A DNA stretch of 25,113 nucleotides from a virus. Below are positions 1 to 22,787 of this stretch, piece after piece. A program made the position numbers and the translations under genes. The stretch's first letter is position 1. Every line of letters begins with the position of its first letter. The notes beneath the pieces are model-generated. The model saw nothing but the letters and a program-made list of their open reading frames with translations, had not been told where the DNA came from and did no database searches. The stretch covers positions 1 through 25,113 of the IMG/VR virus record IMGVR_UViG_3300027980_000092. One strand, 5' to 3'.

Positions 1-459
1 GATACTTACTTTTCTCTTCTGGTATTAACGCTAAGTATTCTGACATCCGCCTACGTTAATACTTTCAGTTTGACATAACTTGCCAGCCGAACATTGGCTA
101 CCCGATAGACTGGAGTTAAAAGGCTGACTATTGAGGATTAAACCTGCTTAGGTGATTGAGCTAGGATTCGACTAGCTCATCTGTGCAGAGGTAAAAAGGC
201 AAGAAACACTCTAACTCAATCATTTAAACAGGCTTATGCTTTGAAGGGTGCCTGAAGGTTAACAAGGCCAACACTCTCGAAAAAGTGAAGATTCGACAAG
301 CCAAGCTAACAAACAGGCATAAAAAAGCCCTTAAAAGCAAAACCTCAGGTGGTAACAGCTCATTAGTTTTAAACAAGGTGAAAACAACTAAGGCCTACTG
401 AAATTCTGCTTTTAAAGACTCTTATTACCTTGTTTACTTAAGCTGATTACCACATCAGC
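1..459 (-). ncRNA. Candidate large structured non-coding RNA, 3' end outside the window
   Basis: No credible gene lies here on either strand, yet a near-consensus promoter at 466-495 fires into it, giving a predicted 5' end near 459. The minus-strand RNA holds many complementary segments (plus coordinates): hairpin 454-459/442-447 whose six-base loop 448-453 is complementary to 349-354; a 10-bp helix 427-436/370-379; an 11-bp helix with one G-U, 407-417/329-339, which interlocks with the previous one; 314-319/249-254; a hairpin 282-287/272-277 with a UUCG loop; an 8-bp helix 229-236/139-146 stacked over an 8-bp helix 215-222/153-160; a hairpin 172-179/157-164; and 54-62 plus 66-68 pairing with 19-30. 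Structure continues to the edge. Large phage RNAs such as GOLLD and ROOL have this character, but I cannot assign a family from sequence alone. Open frames inside lack good starts. Confidence 0.6.
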
Positions 460-465
460 AATTAA

Positions 466-495
466 ATTATACTACCTCCTTATTTTGATTATCAA
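466..495 (-). promoter_or_regulatory. Sigma70-type promoter for the left-end RNA
   Basis: On the minus strand TTGATA (490-495, five of six matches to the -35 consensus) is followed by an 18-base spacer and a perfect TATAAT (466-471). The start would fall at about 459, exactly at the first base of a 6-bp hairpin. The spacer contains AGGAGG (475-480). It does not look like a ribosome binding site, because the nearest ATG downstream is followed by one codon and a stop. The site sits just past the last gene of the tail operon, so it serves the RNA to the left. Confidence 0.65.
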
Positions 496-497
496 GT

Positions 498-704
498 TTA
501 ATTTTGACTTGTTGATACGCCGCCTTTAAAAAGGATGCCGCTTAACACCATCAATCCTAAAGCCTGCAATAATGTTATCTCTGGCAATCCAAATATTTCA
601 GGCATCAACCAATCCCATAAAAGCATCACTGGAATAGCCATGACCAAACAGAAAATCACAAAACCTAAAATTACCCCGATTGCACCCGATATTACTTTAA
701 TCAT
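498..704 (-). CDS. Small two-TM membrane protein
   Basis: A 68-residue protein with two hydrophobic stretches, about residues 4-30 and 43-60, joined by a short segment with the motif WLMPEIFGLPEITLLQALG. Small phage membrane proteins with a similar loop occur widely, but their role is not known to me. The ATG directly abuts the TAG of the preceding gene, with no gap, and both lie in the same frame. It is the last protein gene of the operon. A holin-like role is possible from size and topology, but there is no lysis enzyme nearby to support it. Confidence 0.6.
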   Translation of the reverse strand: MIKVISGAIGVILGFVIFCLVMAIPVMLLWDWLMPEIFGLPEITLLQALGLMVLSGILFKGGVSTSQN

Positions 705-2544: not shown

Positions 2545-4479
2545 TTAGATTGGAGTGTGTACGCCAGTACCGCTCGCATCTCTCCAGATATCCCCCGCGG
2601 CGCTGCCTGAAGAGAAAACCATTTGGTTAGTGGTAGTGTTTTTAACCATCTTACCGTTGAATTTAGCCTCAGTGTTAATGTCTGCAGTAAGACTTGTTAG
2701 TTGCGCTGTTGTGGCAGTTGCGCCAGTATGTACAGCAAAGTTTAACGCGCCAGAGTCGATTGATAGTATTCCAGCGCTTGTTCTTCTCACTAATGTGTCT
2801 GCAGCGCTCGCACCATCTCCAAGCCTAAAGAAACCATCGCTATCTATCTCAATTCTGGGGTTCGTTTCAGTTCCTCTAAATATTTCAATGGCCGGTTGAG
2901 CTGTAGCGTCATCAAGAAAGATTTGCATGTTTTGAGAACTTCCCGATGACGTTTTAGGGAAAGCTATTGCATTTTGCCTAGAAAAATTAGCGTATTGGTA
3001 AGGAATGGCTGTTGCTTTGGCTCCACCCCAGCCGCTCGGAAGGGTTCCACCAAACAAAGTGTCTAGTGAGTCGGGATTGAAATTTTGAAAAATCACAGAG
3101 GGAGCCGCTCCAGTTCCATCCATATAAATTAAGCTATCTCCTGATGTTACATTGCCTGTATCTTGATATGTTAGGTTTTCTAGTTGTAATTGAACGCAGT
3201 CATTGACATTGGTTGTTATTACAATAAAGGCCTTATTACCGGTTAGTGTGGCGTTGTTTTCGTATCTTGCATCGGCAAGCCTCAAAGTTCCAATATTAGA
3301 CAATCCTGCCGTATTATCAATTAACATAAATCCCTGGCCAGTTGAACCGGACATATGATCTGCTGTCCAATTAGAAAGGTTAAATGTGCTTAGGTTTTGC
3401 CCTGCTGATGGTGTTATTCTTATGGCATAATCGTCCCACTCATCAAAACGAAGGTGTGACCAATGAGCATTAACATAACCTTGTATATCTAATAGGTATC
3501 TAGAAGCGCCTCTAAATCTTATCTCCCTTAATCTAAATCCAAAATCGACACCAAAATTAGATGCATTATCCTCTATTAATAACCAGTCTTGCGGTCGCGT
3601 GTCTCCTTCATATAAAGAAAACCCTTCTATAAATGTAGCTGAGTTACCCCCTCTCGCTGTCGCCCCATCCTGGACAATCACAGGTATATTGGTAGCTCCA
3701 TTCCATTTAATAGTTGTATTGTCAACGCCATCACCTACCCATGGCGCTGATTTTTTGGTGATTTGAGCGGCTATAGCGTATGTCCCAGCGGGAAAATAAA
3801 TTTTAGGGGCGGCTATACCAAAAGTCGATTGGACTAAAGTTTGTGCATAATCGACAACCCTTTGTATGCCTGTAGACTGATCACCAGTCCCATTGTTAAG
3901 GATGCCCCACTGTCGAACATTAAATATATCGCCTCTTCGTAAAACAAAACTAATGGATGGATCTGCTACACCTTGAATAATGTCGAATCCATTAGGTGTC
4001 ACACTCGAAGTCAATACAGCATCATAAGTACCGCCACCACCGTTACCGGTTGAGAATTCGGCGGTTCTGTGGGCTTCTCCGACCGATACACCTGCAGTAT
4101 TAATCATAGTGTCAACGGTTTCTTGGTTAACGATATCATTGCTCACATCTGAGGTTAGACCTTGAGAATAAGTCAATCCTGCACTAGTGGCGATGTTAAT
4201 ATAGCTTGCTGAGGTTCCACCCAATACGTTCAGATCGATAATTCCCGACTCTTCCACCATTAACTCAAATTCATTCCCTGACGCGTCAGACATTTTAATA
4301 TCGTTTAGCGCCAAAGGATCTTGAGAGGCCGCGATAATATTACCGGTCGCCTTCCATCGAGATCCACCAACACCGCCCAAAGAGGAATAACCATAGGTCT
4401 TAATCACATCACCTGCAGCATAGCCCGATGAATTAACGTGATCACTAATAAAGTTACTGGTTGTATCAAAATGTTCCAT
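2545..4479 (-). CDS. Tailspike with pectate-lyase-type beta-helix
   Basis: A 644-residue receptor-binding tailspike, likely a trimer that binds and may cleave host surface polysaccharide. The region from about residue 185 has the pectate-lyase-superfamily opening (FNVRQWGILNNGTGDQSTGI, then IYFPAGTYAI and a VGDG turn) that starts right-handed beta-helices in phage depolymerases. N-terminal residues 1-150 look like linker and small beta domains, and residues from about 555 (FFRLGDGASAADTLVRRT) form a C-terminal tip. There is no P22-type head-binding domain, so it probably attaches through the adaptor at 4848-6020. An AAGAGG ribosome binding site sits in a leader shared with that gene. Catalytic residues cannot be named from the sequence. 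Confidence 0.85.
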   Translation of the reverse strand: MEHFDTTSNFISDHVNSSGYAAGDVIKTYGYSSLGGVGGSRWKATGNIIAASQDPLALNDIKMSDASGNEFELMVEESGIIDLNVLGGTSASYINIATSAGLTYSQGLTSDVSNDIVNQETVDTMINTAGVSVGEAHRTAEFSTGNGGGGTYDAVLTSSVTPNGFDIIQGVADPSISFVLRRGDIFNVRQWGILNNGTGDQSTGIQRVVDYAQTLVQSTFGIAAPKIYFPAGTYAIAAQITKKSAPWVGDGVDNTTIKWNGATNIPVIVQDGATARGGNSATFIEGFSLYEGDTRPQDWLLIEDNASNFGVDFGFRLREIRFRGASRYLLDIQGYVNAHWSHLRFDEWDDYAIRITPSAGQNLSTFNLSNWTADHMSGSTGQGFMLIDNTAGLSNIGTLRLADARYENNATLTGNKAFIVITTNVNDCVQLQLENLTYQDTGNVTSGDSLIYMDGTGAAPSVIFQNFNPDSLDTLFGGTLPSGWGGAKATAIPYQYANFSRQNAIAFPKTSSGSSQNMQIFLDDATAQPAIEIFRGTETNPRIEIDSDGFFRLGDGASAADTLVRRTSAGILSIDSGALNFAVHTGATATTAQLTSLTADINTEAKFNGKMVKNTTTNQMVFSSGSAAGDIWRDASGTGVHTPI

Positions 4480-6050: not shown

Positions 6051-8162
6051 TTAATCTTCTTTAACTGTTTCCTCTATCGCTGGTGTAGCTGCGACCGCTG
6101 GAGAGGTTAACCACTCAAAAAAACCACTGTTTGCGATCTGCTCTTGAGTTGCCTTATCAAGCCCATCAAACCACGACTGATAGGCTTTTGAATTGGCTAA
6201 AACGGCCTCTGGATTGCCTTTGTTCATCGCTCTGGCTTTGGCGGCTTGGGTAAATTCTTTAGATGTGATTAATTCTTCGGCTTTTTCTAGCTTGGATTTT
6301 CCCTTAGCTCGAACCACTTTTGAGGCAATCCCTCTGGTTCCTGGTGGGGCCGTTTCTTCTGCTGTAAAGGCTAGAAGGTTTCTTAACGCGCCACCCTCAT
6401 CCATTGCGGCAAATAAGTCTCTCGCTGTCTTGGAGTTGTTTTGTAGGGCTTTAGACCTAATTAGTCCAGTCCATACTCGGCCTATATCATCTAATTGCTT
6501 ACCTACTCCTTTGGGAAGTTTTGAGTAAAGTGTTTCCTTAGCTCTTTTATTCTTGTTGAGCTTGGCAAAAGCCTTAACAAACCCTTCCCCCAAACCGTCC
6601 GCTGTTCTTGAGCCAAATCCCAAAACGCGATCTAAAATTAACGCTGATAAATCGCCGTGAAGGTCTTTAGGGACATCTTTTAGTAGTTGATTAAATTTCT
6701 TAACATTACCTTTCACCAAGGCATTAGCTGCACCATCGACCTTTGGAGCTAATGCGCCTGACTCCGCATCTCTACCAAACAGCCTAATCATTGAGTCTTG
6801 AATGCCCTTTCTCTGCTGTGTGAGCTTTTTAGCGCCCTGGTATGCGGTTAATAGGTTTTCATCAATACCACCTATAACGCCCTCTTGAATATCTGTAATT
6901 AAATTATAAACATCATCAAGGCTTTTTGTGGCTTCATCTTTAAATGCTCCGGCTTTTTGATATCCTTCTCCAATGGATTTTCTTAGGGCGTCTAAACGCT
7001 CATAAGTTATCAAGTTTCCATCTTCTGCTTTTTTAACCAGCGCATGTAAAGCCTTTTCAGGTTTTGATAATCCTGTCGCATCTCCGCCAAGGTCGGCCAA
7101 TCGCTCCGATATATAGCTTGTTGCGTTTGCCATGTTGACTTCTCGACGCTTACCAACGGTCTCTTTAACGGCATTATAAGCCCCTTTTTCAGATTGTTTG
7201 ATTTGGTCAATGGTTTTGGTGAACCTTTCGCCTAAGTCAAAATCGAACCCAGATACATCCAAGTCGCCGCCCCTGAGATCTGAAACCAGGTTATTTGCTA
7301 TATCTTGAGTTTTGGCGATTGCTGCCGCTTCCTGTGCTAATAATTCAGATCCAGGTAAAAACTTCGTTGATTGCGCCGCTTCCTGAAACGCCTTATTTTG
7401 TGAGGCTGCAGATATAGGAATATCGATATCTAATCGTTCTGCTGATTGGATAATAGCAGGATCTAAATCTGCTGTAGCTGCGGCCTGAATATCTTTCTTT
7501 GCAACCTTTTTAGTGACTTCTTCAACTGGCAAATCTTCGCTTTTGGTGGCTTTTTGATAAACATCGGTTCCTTTTTGAGTCACCATTCCCTTATCATCGA
7601 TCAAACCAGCTTTTTGCATTTTGCTTACTTTAGACGCTTGAGTTCCCTTAAATCCTAGCATCTCTGGGATTGCGTTTAACATGGTTATATTGGCCGCGGC
7701 GAAAGCTGCCTTTGCTTCTGGGCTTTTTAAGCCTAAATTCTCAGCAAGAGATAGAGCATCTTCACCTAAGTCATCTTCTAAGTCAGTCCAAAAGCTAAAT
7801 ATATCCCCAAGCTTCCCTATGGCCGCCTGTCCTTCTTGGGTTCTTGGCTCGTACGTAAGAGATTGGGATACACTTCTGGCGCGCTCTGCGCCCCGATAAG
7901 GATCTAATGTGGCGATAGATTCGCCTATCCCCTCTAAACCGCCGGCGATTTGACCGACAACACCTGATCCAACCGTGGCAAGACCTTCTAAGGCTCCCAG
8001 CGCATCCATGCCCAATTGCTGCATAAATCCGCGATCAGGCAATTGAGCTTGCGGGACTGCTCTCTGCTCCTTAATTCTTTCGGCAAACCTTTGGGCCGCT
8101 GCAGTATCTCCAGCCGCATCAGCTTTTCTTAAGGCTTCTCTTAGCTGTTCTTCAGTTGCCAT
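6051..8162 (-). CDS. Large DNA-ejection protein, gp16-like position
   Basis: A 703-residue helical protein in the place of P22 gp16 (609 residues), an internal virion protein that leaves with the DNA and helps it cross the cell envelope. The N-terminus (MATEEQLREALRKADAAGDT) is a short helical motif with ADAAGDTAAAQR that is common at the start of phage ejection and internal proteins. Residues 45-75 are Gly/Ala/Val rich (GALEGLATVGSGVVGQIAGG) and could insert in a membrane. The rest is Lys/Glu-rich helix, with no lysozyme or protease motif that I see. It is coupled to the previous ejection gene by TAATG. Confidence 0.7.
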   Translation of the reverse strand: MATEEQLREALRKADAAGDTAAAQRFAERIKEQRAVPQAQLPDRGFMQQLGMDALGALEGLATVGSGVVGQIAGGLEGIGESIATLDPYRGAERARSVSQSLTYEPRTQEGQAAIGKLGDIFSFWTDLEDDLGEDALSLAENLGLKSPEAKAAFAAANITMLNAIPEMLGFKGTQASKVSKMQKAGLIDDKGMVTQKGTDVYQKATKSEDLPVEEVTKKVAKKDIQAAATADLDPAIIQSAERLDIDIPISAASQNKAFQEAAQSTKFLPGSELLAQEAAAIAKTQDIANNLVSDLRGGDLDVSGFDFDLGERFTKTIDQIKQSEKGAYNAVKETVGKRREVNMANATSYISERLADLGGDATGLSKPEKALHALVKKAEDGNLITYERLDALRKSIGEGYQKAGAFKDEATKSLDDVYNLITDIQEGVIGGIDENLLTAYQGAKKLTQQRKGIQDSMIRLFGRDAESGALAPKVDGAANALVKGNVKKFNQLLKDVPKDLHGDLSALILDRVLGFGSRTADGLGEGFVKAFAKLNKNKRAKETLYSKLPKGVGKQLDDIGRVWTGLIRSKALQNNSKTARDLFAAMDEGGALRNLLAFTAEETAPPGTRGIASKVVRAKGKSKLEKAEELITSKEFTQAAKARAMNKGNPEAVLANSKAYQSWFDGLDKATQEQIANSGFFEWLTSPAVAATPAIEETVKED

Positions 8163-21788: not shown

Positions 21789-22141
21789 GACTTGTCCCTC
21801 GCCCAATATCCGCGCCAAACGTGATCATAAGCCATTTTTTCGCCAGCATGACTAAATTCAGGTTTAACCTCCGTGCTTGGCATGTCGTACCAGTTAACAT
21901 CAGACGTCATTGGAAACGGCGTATTATTAAGTATTTCTTGGTCTGGCGAAAAAATGGTTATAGACTCGCCACCAATCAACCCAAAGTGCTTAGCTATTGC
22001 TATAGCATCTGATTTGCTAATGGCAAACCTGTGCGCTCCGTGGTTAAAAAATATAAGCTCTCCAGATATCGGTAAGCTACAAGTGCCAGCAACCTCTATC
22101 TGTGAGTCATCCCACTCATGTTCCTTAATATCAAAACTCAT
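21785..22141 (-). CDS. Hypothetical protein, 118 residues
   Basis: A 118-residue acidic soluble protein. N-terminal strands (IEVAGTCSLPISGELIFFNH) precede a helix (SKSDAIAIAKHFGLIG) and a Trp/Asp-rich C-terminus (MAYDHVWRGYWARDKS). No family recognised. ATGA overlaps join it to genes on both sides. Confidence 0.6.
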   Translation of the reverse strand: MSFDIKEHEWDDSQIEVAGTCSLPISGELIFFNHGAHRFAISKSDAIAIAKHFGLIGGESITIFSPDQEILNNTPFPMTSDVNWYDMPSTEVKPEFSHAGEKMAYDHVWRGYWARDKS

Positions 22142-22380
22142 GCTAAATCCTCCTCCAGAAATTTAATTAATTTATAATCTCTAACCTTGTCTTTATACTG
22201 CTTTAAAGTTAGGTGCGATAAGTGCCAGAACCCACATTTGCAGCATTGATAGGCTGTTTTAAGCTTTCTCTTGGGGTTTGTCGCTCTTTTCATCACCTTC
22301 TTTGCTTCTTTCTTTGTTGTGAATGCTTTTTTGTAACAACTGCCAATATACTTAGTTCCATAGGGAGATTTCTTTATCAT
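22138..22380 (-). CDS. Small zinc-binding-like protein, 80 residues
   Basis: An 80-residue very basic protein. Residues 44-57 (YQCCKCGFWHLSHL) place C46-x2-C49-x3-H53-x2-H56, a compact zinc site of a type often seen in small phage proteins with YxCxxCxxWH. The N-terminal half is Lys-rich (TTKKEAKKVMKRATNPKRKL), so nucleic acid binding is plausible. GGAG lies nine bases before the ATG. It is coupled by ATGA to the next gene. Confidence 0.65.
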   Translation of the reverse strand: MIKKSPYGTKYIGSCYKKAFTTKKEAKKVMKRATNPKRKLKTAYQCCKCGFWHLSHLTLKQYKDKVRDYKLIKFLEEDLA

Positions 22381-22420
22381 ATCATCCAGCTCCAGGTGTA
22401 ATTAGCGAATATACTTACAT

Positions 22421-22510
22421 CTAAATCAAGATAAATCGGATTCATTTTTTCTTTTTTCCAAATATCTTCTCAAACTCCTCTTCAAATTTTTTGCGATCTA
22501 ATTTATCCAT
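22421..22510 (-). CDS. Micro-ORF, 29 residues
   Basis: A 29-residue frame starting MDKLDRKKFEEEFEKIFGKK with strong GGAGGG just before the ATG, which overlaps the stop of the preceding one-TM gene. The product is a charged helix. The ribosome binding site and overlap support translation, but a frame this short may arise by chance. The 40 bases from here to the zinc-protein start hold only that gene's ribosome binding site. Confidence 0.4.
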
Positions 22511-22787
22511 CTTGCCCTCCAGGTTCGTGTGATAATAGTTTTAGTTTATTAATCTCTTCTTCTAATAGTTTGACTCTTTCTAATAAGTCGTTGTCTGGCT
22601 TATTTAATATTTCAGCCTCTCTTGCTTTAGCGTCTGCTCGGATAACATCATCATAACCAACTACCGCAAGACCTGATGCAATGGTTTGGATTAACATCAT
22701 AAAGCCAGCACAAAAAACAATAATAAACGCTGGAGCTTTGCTCTTAACGTATTCATTGCTCATTAGCTCGTCCTGGTTATCGCTCAT
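22503..22787 (-). CDS. Single-TM protein with C-terminal coiled coil
   Basis: A 94-residue protein with a hydrophobic segment at residues 17-42 (APAFIIVFCAGFMMLIQTIA) and a coiled coil at 67-86 (NDLLERVKLLEEEINKLKLL). One membrane pass plus coiled coil is also the plan of i-spanins and of some regulatory membrane proteins, but no o-spanin or endolysin is visible beside it. It overlaps the previous gene by 11 bases. Confidence 0.6.
   Translation of the reverse strand: MSDNQDELMSNEYVKSKAPAFIIVFCAGFMMLIQTIASGLAVVGYDDVIRADAKAREAEILNKPDNDLLERVKLLEEEINKLKLLSHEPGGQDG

Follow-up and report, generated by a model that had tools for sequence, protein, structure and literature searches.

A gene-free region at the edge of a phage contig

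What does a phage encode in a stretch of its genome where no protein can be found? The question is raised by the left end of the window analysed here, a 25.1-kb contig fragment from IMG/VR (25,113 nucleotides; base 1 is the left edge of the contig) of a P22-like podovirus, whose portal protein shares 48.6% identity with that of Vibrio phage 1.275.O and 47.2% with that of Pseudomonas phage AH02. A preliminary description of this DNA had seen no credible gene in positions 1-459 and a promoter pointing into them, and both observations are borne out: no open reading frame of at least 60 aa overlaps the region on either strand, and a promoter matching 11 of 12 positions occupies 495-466 of the minus strand. 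The minus strand of the region folds at -138.6 kcal/mol compared with -112.5 +/- 6.5 kcal/mol in dinucleotide shuffles (z -4.05; 0/100), the plus strand giving a z of -2.63.

1..459, minus strand: visible 5' part of the proposed non-coding RNA (no open reading frame, fold z -4.05, 10 sequence homologues)
466..495, minus strand: sigma-70 type promoter, TTGATA-18-TATAAT, with AAGGAGGT in the spacer (11/12 match)

The same description had offered two identities for the region, the 5' part of a GOLLD- or ROOL-like RNA or that of a new class. Comparative analysis supports the latter: the region appears to comprise the promoter and the 5' ~460 nt of a new, uncatalogued class of structured phage RNA, found in at least 11 phage contigs, and not GOLLD or ROOL, neither of whose models matches it. 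We assign it to a new class because its helices are kept by compensatory change, it has no Rfam match and its fold recurs in other phages. Transcription probably starts at about position 459, and the RNA leaves the contig at base 1. In the homologues the RNA extends beyond the window's left edge, and the 3' domain of the window's own RNA would be expected to the left of base 1; what is visible is the core, P5, arm A and helices B and C. The helices reported from the window itself are present, the one of 10 bp as the GTATTAACG/CGTTAATAC pair (62-54 / 30-22) and the one of 11 bp as part of arm A (235-211 / 164-140). The 5' pseudoknot, the U6 run after P3 and the continuation past the contig edge had not been visible to that first reading.

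All 19 loci examined have a promoter-like site upstream of the core, agreeing with the consensus at 7 to 11 of 12 positions. For nine of the 11 sequence-related members the -10 box stops 7-8 nt short of a conserved CTGAT; in G051 and G052 the site is ~60 nt farther upstream, with two additional hairpins in between. Many loci have a AAGGAGGTGAT-like sequence in the promoter spacer. In the window (466-497) and its homologues this spacer sequence, AAGGAGGTGAT, is complementary to the 3' end of 16S rRNA, and the upstream gene (..KEVI*) ends inside the region in some contigs.

Homologues in phages with different head genes

We gathered 80 relatives from IMG/VR through alignment of portal proteins. 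Comparing the window RNA with the whole records behind 50 related loci gave one clear homologue, G005 (IMGVR_UViG_3300022690_000657; E 2.8e-9), in which helix P2 is exchanged base for base on both sides. Pattern scans of IMG/VR with strings shared by the two added G051-G057, L123 (G426) and L129 (G427), to give 11 members including the window. Two models, R1 (sequence only) and R2 (a covariance model including P3 and P4), score all 11 far over background, as is expected when most members were used in model building. A related portal is present in only 2 of the 10 homologues and a related terminase in 4 of the 10, and the RNA therefore travels among phages with different head genes.

Other routes to relatives were less productive. 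An exact scan of IMG/VR for one hairpin had no match, protein-based searches with two tail genes found no relatives, and BLASTN of the window, G005, G057, G056 and G054 RNAs against INPHARED returned only tRNA-like or chance matches. BLASTN with the core alone had no match in phages or plasmids, and the core pattern was absent from 369 genomes in the class of G003. We rejected the IMG/VR match L108 as coding, and most of the extra matches of the last pattern scan (L118-L122, L124-L128 and L130-L138) as unrelated terminator-like sequences.

A pseudoknotted core ending in a U-run

The first 140 nt of the RNA form a pseudoknot, in which P3 crosses both P1 and P2, a topology that ordinary folding programs are unable to draw. 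The order of elements is the same in all members: P1a, P2a, P3a, UUAGUU (P4a), P2b, AACUAA (P4b), P1b, P3b and U6-8.

318..458, minus strand: conserved 5' core, pseudoknot domain (100.5 bits with model R2, the window being among R2's building sequences)
441..453, minus strand: P1 5' strand GUGGUAAUCAGCU, partner 349-360 (swap test 0/100000)
349..360, minus strand: P1 3' strand AGCUGUUACCAC (swap test with 441-453)
427..435, minus strand: P2 5' strand AAACAAGGU, partner 371-379 (swap test 0/100000)
371..379, minus strand: P2 3' strand ACCUUGUUU (swap test with 427-435)
398..420, minus strand: P3 5' strand, inside the P2 loop, 23-bp helix with 326-348 (swap test 0/100000)
326..348, minus strand: P3 3' strand, crossing P1 and P2 (swap test with 398-420)
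386..391, minus strand: P4 5' strand UUAGUU (invariant across sequence-related members, by eye)
363..368, minus strand: P4 3' strand AACUAA, pairs with 386-391
321..326, minus strand: terminator-like U-run adjoining the base of P3 (11/11 members have 6-8 U)

MAFFT misaligns P1 and P2 by one base between members, so we dropped column-wise counting of covariation and used an alignment-free swap test instead. With conserved anchors as the cutting points, we hybridised every 5' strand to its own 3' strand and to those of all other members. Across the 11 members, own pairs were more stable than swapped pairs for P1 (-13.8 vs -7.5 kcal/mol), P2 (-14.0 vs -7.2 kcal/mol) and P3 (-27.4 vs -19.4 kcal/mol), with 0/100,000 permutations in each case; these figures are not strict probabilities, because the test preserves column make-up and not kinship. 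Three usable control pairs of strands not proposed to pair gave no excess, and a fourth (up x p3a) was unusable.

A stronger argument for the helices than the swap-test numbers is, we suggest, the wholesale replacement of P2 across the 11 members, in which both strands are exchanged together (CCAAUACAC/GUGUAUUGG etc.). Similarly, P3 in G055 and G056 carries compensating insertions, AACUUA opposite UAAGUU. Judged from these comparisons, the P1/P2/P3 pseudoknot, and with it P5 and arm A (below), is shown to be kept by compensatory change, a pattern that favours an RNA over codon-type conservation.

Structure downstream of the U-run

The 320 bases of the window that follow the U-run carry further helices.

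249..320, minus strand: hairpin P5 (320-300 / 269-249), immediately 3' of the U-run (anchor-based swap test, 9 members, 0/100000)
238..248, minus strand: conserved CCCUUCAAAGC, complementary to the P3 3' strand (from sequence)
140..235, minus strand: arm A (235-211 / 164-140) (swap test, 9 members, 0/100000; strands picked by eye)
82..128, minus strand: helix B (128-122 / 88-82) (from sequence)
22..62, minus strand: helix C, GUAUUAACG/CGUUAAUAC (from sequence and minimum free energy fold)

For P5, own pairs gave -18.8 and swapped pairs -9.6 in nine members with anchored strands (0/100,000). P5 and arm A thus covary downstream of the U-run, and the RNA is therefore structured on either side of it and would function past it. 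The CCCUUCAAAGC string at 238-248, present in many members, resembles the P3 5' strand, and it is possible that it could replace P3a as the partner of P3b. The apex of arm A, GCUAGUCGAAUCCUAGC, is somewhat like a tRNA T-arm. Arm-like sequences (TATATGTGGTGG...) also occur away from or upstream of a core, at L115:1526-1641 and L159 ~6886-7000, and may be truncated or additional copies of it.

In the homologues a variable linker of ~20 to ~600 nt separates the 5' domain from a 3' domain, and tRNA genes or tRNA-like pieces lie at about the position of helix B. Intact tRNA-Ser(GCT) and tRNA-Ser(TGA) genes are found in the linkers of G055 and G427, and Rfam-level tRNA matches in those of G053 and G054 (46.5 and 32.2 bits). 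By eye, G056, G057 and L123 have degenerate tRNA-like pieces; several such pieces are degenerate or have no recognisable anticodon, one being listed as 'tRNA-???'. No tRNA was seen in G005, G051 or G052. The pieces at L112 (~2845-3650) and in L123 have intact D- and T-arm-like strings and CCA with a distorted anticodon region, and are Leu-like in G057. The 3' domain begins with an AUCAGC-AAAU-like string in G005, G052, G054-G057 and L129 (by eye), and with a less exact one in G051 and L123.

The fold in phages without sequence identity

We used a structural descriptor, consisting of P3 ending in a T-run together with P2 and P1, to look for the architecture independently of sequence. On 1.5 Mb of fetched phage DNA it gave 15 matches, namely all 11 members and four others, all scoring at least 66.2, compared with five matches and a top score of 63.8 on 6.0 Mb of shuffles. 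With a slightly looser descriptor on 2.2 Mb, the convincing further loci are two in AH02 and those of L164 and G021 (L159). Vibrio phage 1.275.O and G015, which has two copies, form a separate family with a common sequence; the fold of 1.275.O was found by eye and the sequence model misses it. By eye, the P4 site holds GGGC/GCCC in 1.275.O and UCUCCU/AGGAGA in AH02. The fold recurs without sequence identity in two cultured phages, 1.275.O and AH02.

The looser descriptor also matched a GC-rich repeat inside a coding gene of lambda at a score of 70.4, and the low-scoring loci identified by architecture only (L053, L090 and L152) are therefore weaker. The descriptor found no match on P22 and, on lambda, matches only within that coding repeat. 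P1 is weak in the second AH02 locus and in L164, and P2 is weak in L053.

Several of these loci, in AH02, L164 and L053, are copies of the core only. In the left operon of AH02 the U-run ends 16 nt ahead of an HNH gene's start codon, and in the right operon 18 nt ahead of gp51; a RecT-like gene, so named by inspection of its translation, begins 16 nt after the U-run of L164, and in L053 an ATG follows soon after it.

Comparison with known RNA systems

The region matched no Rfam family at the gathering score, and at E<=10 it gave only chance-level matches; the positive control for the search was the ROOL of pMP118 alone, which was found at 1.1e-26. The GOLLD model (RF02032) matched none of 50 related records at E<=1, the window itself being without the 3' domain, nor at E<=3 to 5 in L097, L104-L107, L109 and L110-L117, nor at E<=1 in L123, L129, L159 and L152. 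The ROOL model (RF03087) had no match in the region or in homologous loci, including L123, L129, L159 and L152.

The universally conserved part of GOLLD is its 3' region. ROOL is a large RNA of phages and prophages with pseudoknots and a variable linker, features it has in common with the RNA described here, which differs in having no match to its model. Like GOLLD, the new RNA is large, elaborate and phage-borne, with 5' and 3' domains and, between them, a variable linker in which tRNAs may lie, a common layout that does not in itself prove kinship; it differs in having a conserved 5' pseudoknot with a U-run after it, and in lacking a covariance match. GOLLD has been described as having separate 5' and 3' domains and a variable linker with tRNAs inside in some cases (PMC12286853). 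The most abundant transcript of phage ICP1 is an unclassified non-coding RNA of ~800 nt (PMC7567579). It is likewise an ORF-less phage RNA beside a sigma-70-like promoter, and it has TCAGCGTAAAT in common with the 3' domain of G056; it contains no core pseudoknot and no model match, and kinship is unproven. The ICP1 RNA (L139:90-1110) also has ACTATAATCAGCGTAAATCATAG, which resembles the ACTATATCAGCGTAAATAATC of the G056 3' domain (L111).

Attenuators and riboswitch platforms offer a different comparison, with a promoter, alternative helices, and a terminator-like hairpin and U-run just before a start codon, as in AH02. Here, however, the alternatives are linked by pseudoknot topology and not by common bases, and the cargo varies by phage. 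The put RNAs of HK022 are short structured antitermination RNAs near the early promoters of lambdoid phages. Both are structured phage RNAs affecting, or here proposed to affect, termination; put is set apart, by description, in being short, near early promoters and without a U-run.

We rejected three further candidates. Type III toxin-antitoxin RNAs are tandem pseudoknot repeats before an endoribonuclease toxin, whereas here there is a single core unit and the downstream genes are HNH, RecT-like or unassigned. An intron does not fit an RNA that follows complete, differing upstream genes and has its own promoter, and HEARO has no Rfam match here, though HNH genes are often nearby. A search of PubMed Central found no paper describing this RNA class.

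A possible attenuator and its rivals

The reading that we favour, and to which we give somewhat short of an even chance, is that the core is an attenuator, in which P1 and P2 compete with the terminator-like P3 and so gate transcription into a tRNA-bearing RNA or a phage gene. Transcription would start at the RNA's own promoter, and P1 and P2 would form first, before P3b is made, keeping the P3 5' strand inside the P2 loop. P3 is 21-28 bp long, at least two helical turns, and its 3' strand, while tethered to the polymerase, should be unable to wind through a closed P2 loop. By this topological argument P1/P2 and a full P3 would therefore be alternatives during transcription. P3 with the U-run would act as a conditional terminator, and retention of P1/P2 would let transcription continue, to give a long RNA that includes the linker, tRNAs and 3' domain or, in the core-only loci (AH02, L164 and L053), a protein gene starting 16-18 nt after P3. 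After release, P1, P2 and P3 may coexist as one pseudoknot.

The helix followed by a U-run that an attenuator calls for is present, as P3 and 6-8 U, in 11 of 11 members, and a U-run of terminator form just before start codons in the core-only loci is what would be expected of one. The alternatives are of similar mean strength in the 11 members, at -23.0 kcal/mol for P1 and P2 together vs -27.4 kcal/mol for P3. Against an attenuator, the two energies show no correlation across 19 loci, and P3 has a long loop and a high AU/GU content for a terminator.

Another way to view the locus is as an ornate scaffold of the GOLLD/ROOL kind, a single long transcript in which the U-run is internal, the domains build a possibly multimeric particle and the linker tRNAs are cargo. 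The layout of 5' domain, ~20 to ~600 nt linker and 3' domain with its AUCAGC-AAAU-like motif is what such an RNA would have, as are the tRNA genes or Rfam-level matches in the linkers of four members, recalling those carried in some cases by the GOLLD linker (PMC12286853), and the covariation on either side of the U-run. It is nevertheless difficult to reconcile with a terminator-like U-run in 11 of 11 members, it leaves the core-only copies 16-18 nt before start codons unexplained, and neither sequence nor covariance searches gave a match to GOLLD or ROOL; we consider it a serious but unlikely possibility. The core-only copies in AH02 would also fit a phage small RNA of ~140 nt, with a promoter 7-8 nt ahead of the core, P3 as an ordinary terminator at the core's end, and a separate tRNA array or gene downstream. 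Since compensatory change maintains P5 and arm A, immediately downstream, to the same degree, and we found no separate promoter for them, we regard this as improbable.

That the RNA is the leader of a phage tRNA operon, serving only to deliver tRNAs after processing, is suggested by the intact tRNA-Ser(GCT) and tRNA-Ser(TGA) genes of two members, and is very improbable given that no tRNA was seen in G005, G051 and G052, that several tRNA-like pieces are degenerate or have no recognisable anticodon, and that core-only copies occur without tRNA. Compensatory change in every tested helix, with 0/100,000 swap permutations, leaves next to no room for untranscribed intergenic DNA that folds by chance, a reading refuted as far as sequence can refute it.

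Returning to the attenuator, we propose, more tentatively still, that the core is a portable RNA device of phages, equipped with its own promoter and with an attenuator that works by topology, pseudoknot against long terminator helix, and placed in unrelated phages before varied cargo, either recombination or endonuclease genes or a giant tRNA-carrying RNA. To our knowledge no function has been assigned to the large phage RNAs GOLLD and ROOL, and very few such classes have been described. The RNA described here would be a class independent of both, with the same layout and tRNA cargo and much clearer functional clues, because in a cultured phage its short copies immediately precede start codons. 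As two cultured phages, 1.275.O and AH02, carry the fold, termination, tRNA release and phage fitness are open to direct testing.

Genes beside the RNA

The gene immediately upstream of the RNA in the window (498-704) matches phrog_705 and phrog_2169 (membrane protein), and the DNA at 583-626 within it is 86% identical to Synechococcus phage syn9. HNH endonuclease genes, often HNH plus AP2-like, adjoin the RNA in several unrelated phages.

L101:8592-9059: HNH gene by the RNA
L097:4547-5041: HNH gene by the RNA
L129:10651-11154: HNH gene by the RNA
L003 ~22062-22535: HNH gene by the RNA
L053 ~2101: HNH gene by the RNA

In G051 the RNA and its HNH gene are directly followed by an RNA ligase domain (L101:9108-9641; PF09414, 3.2e-16), and RNA or tRNA repair would suit a tRNA-bearing RNA.
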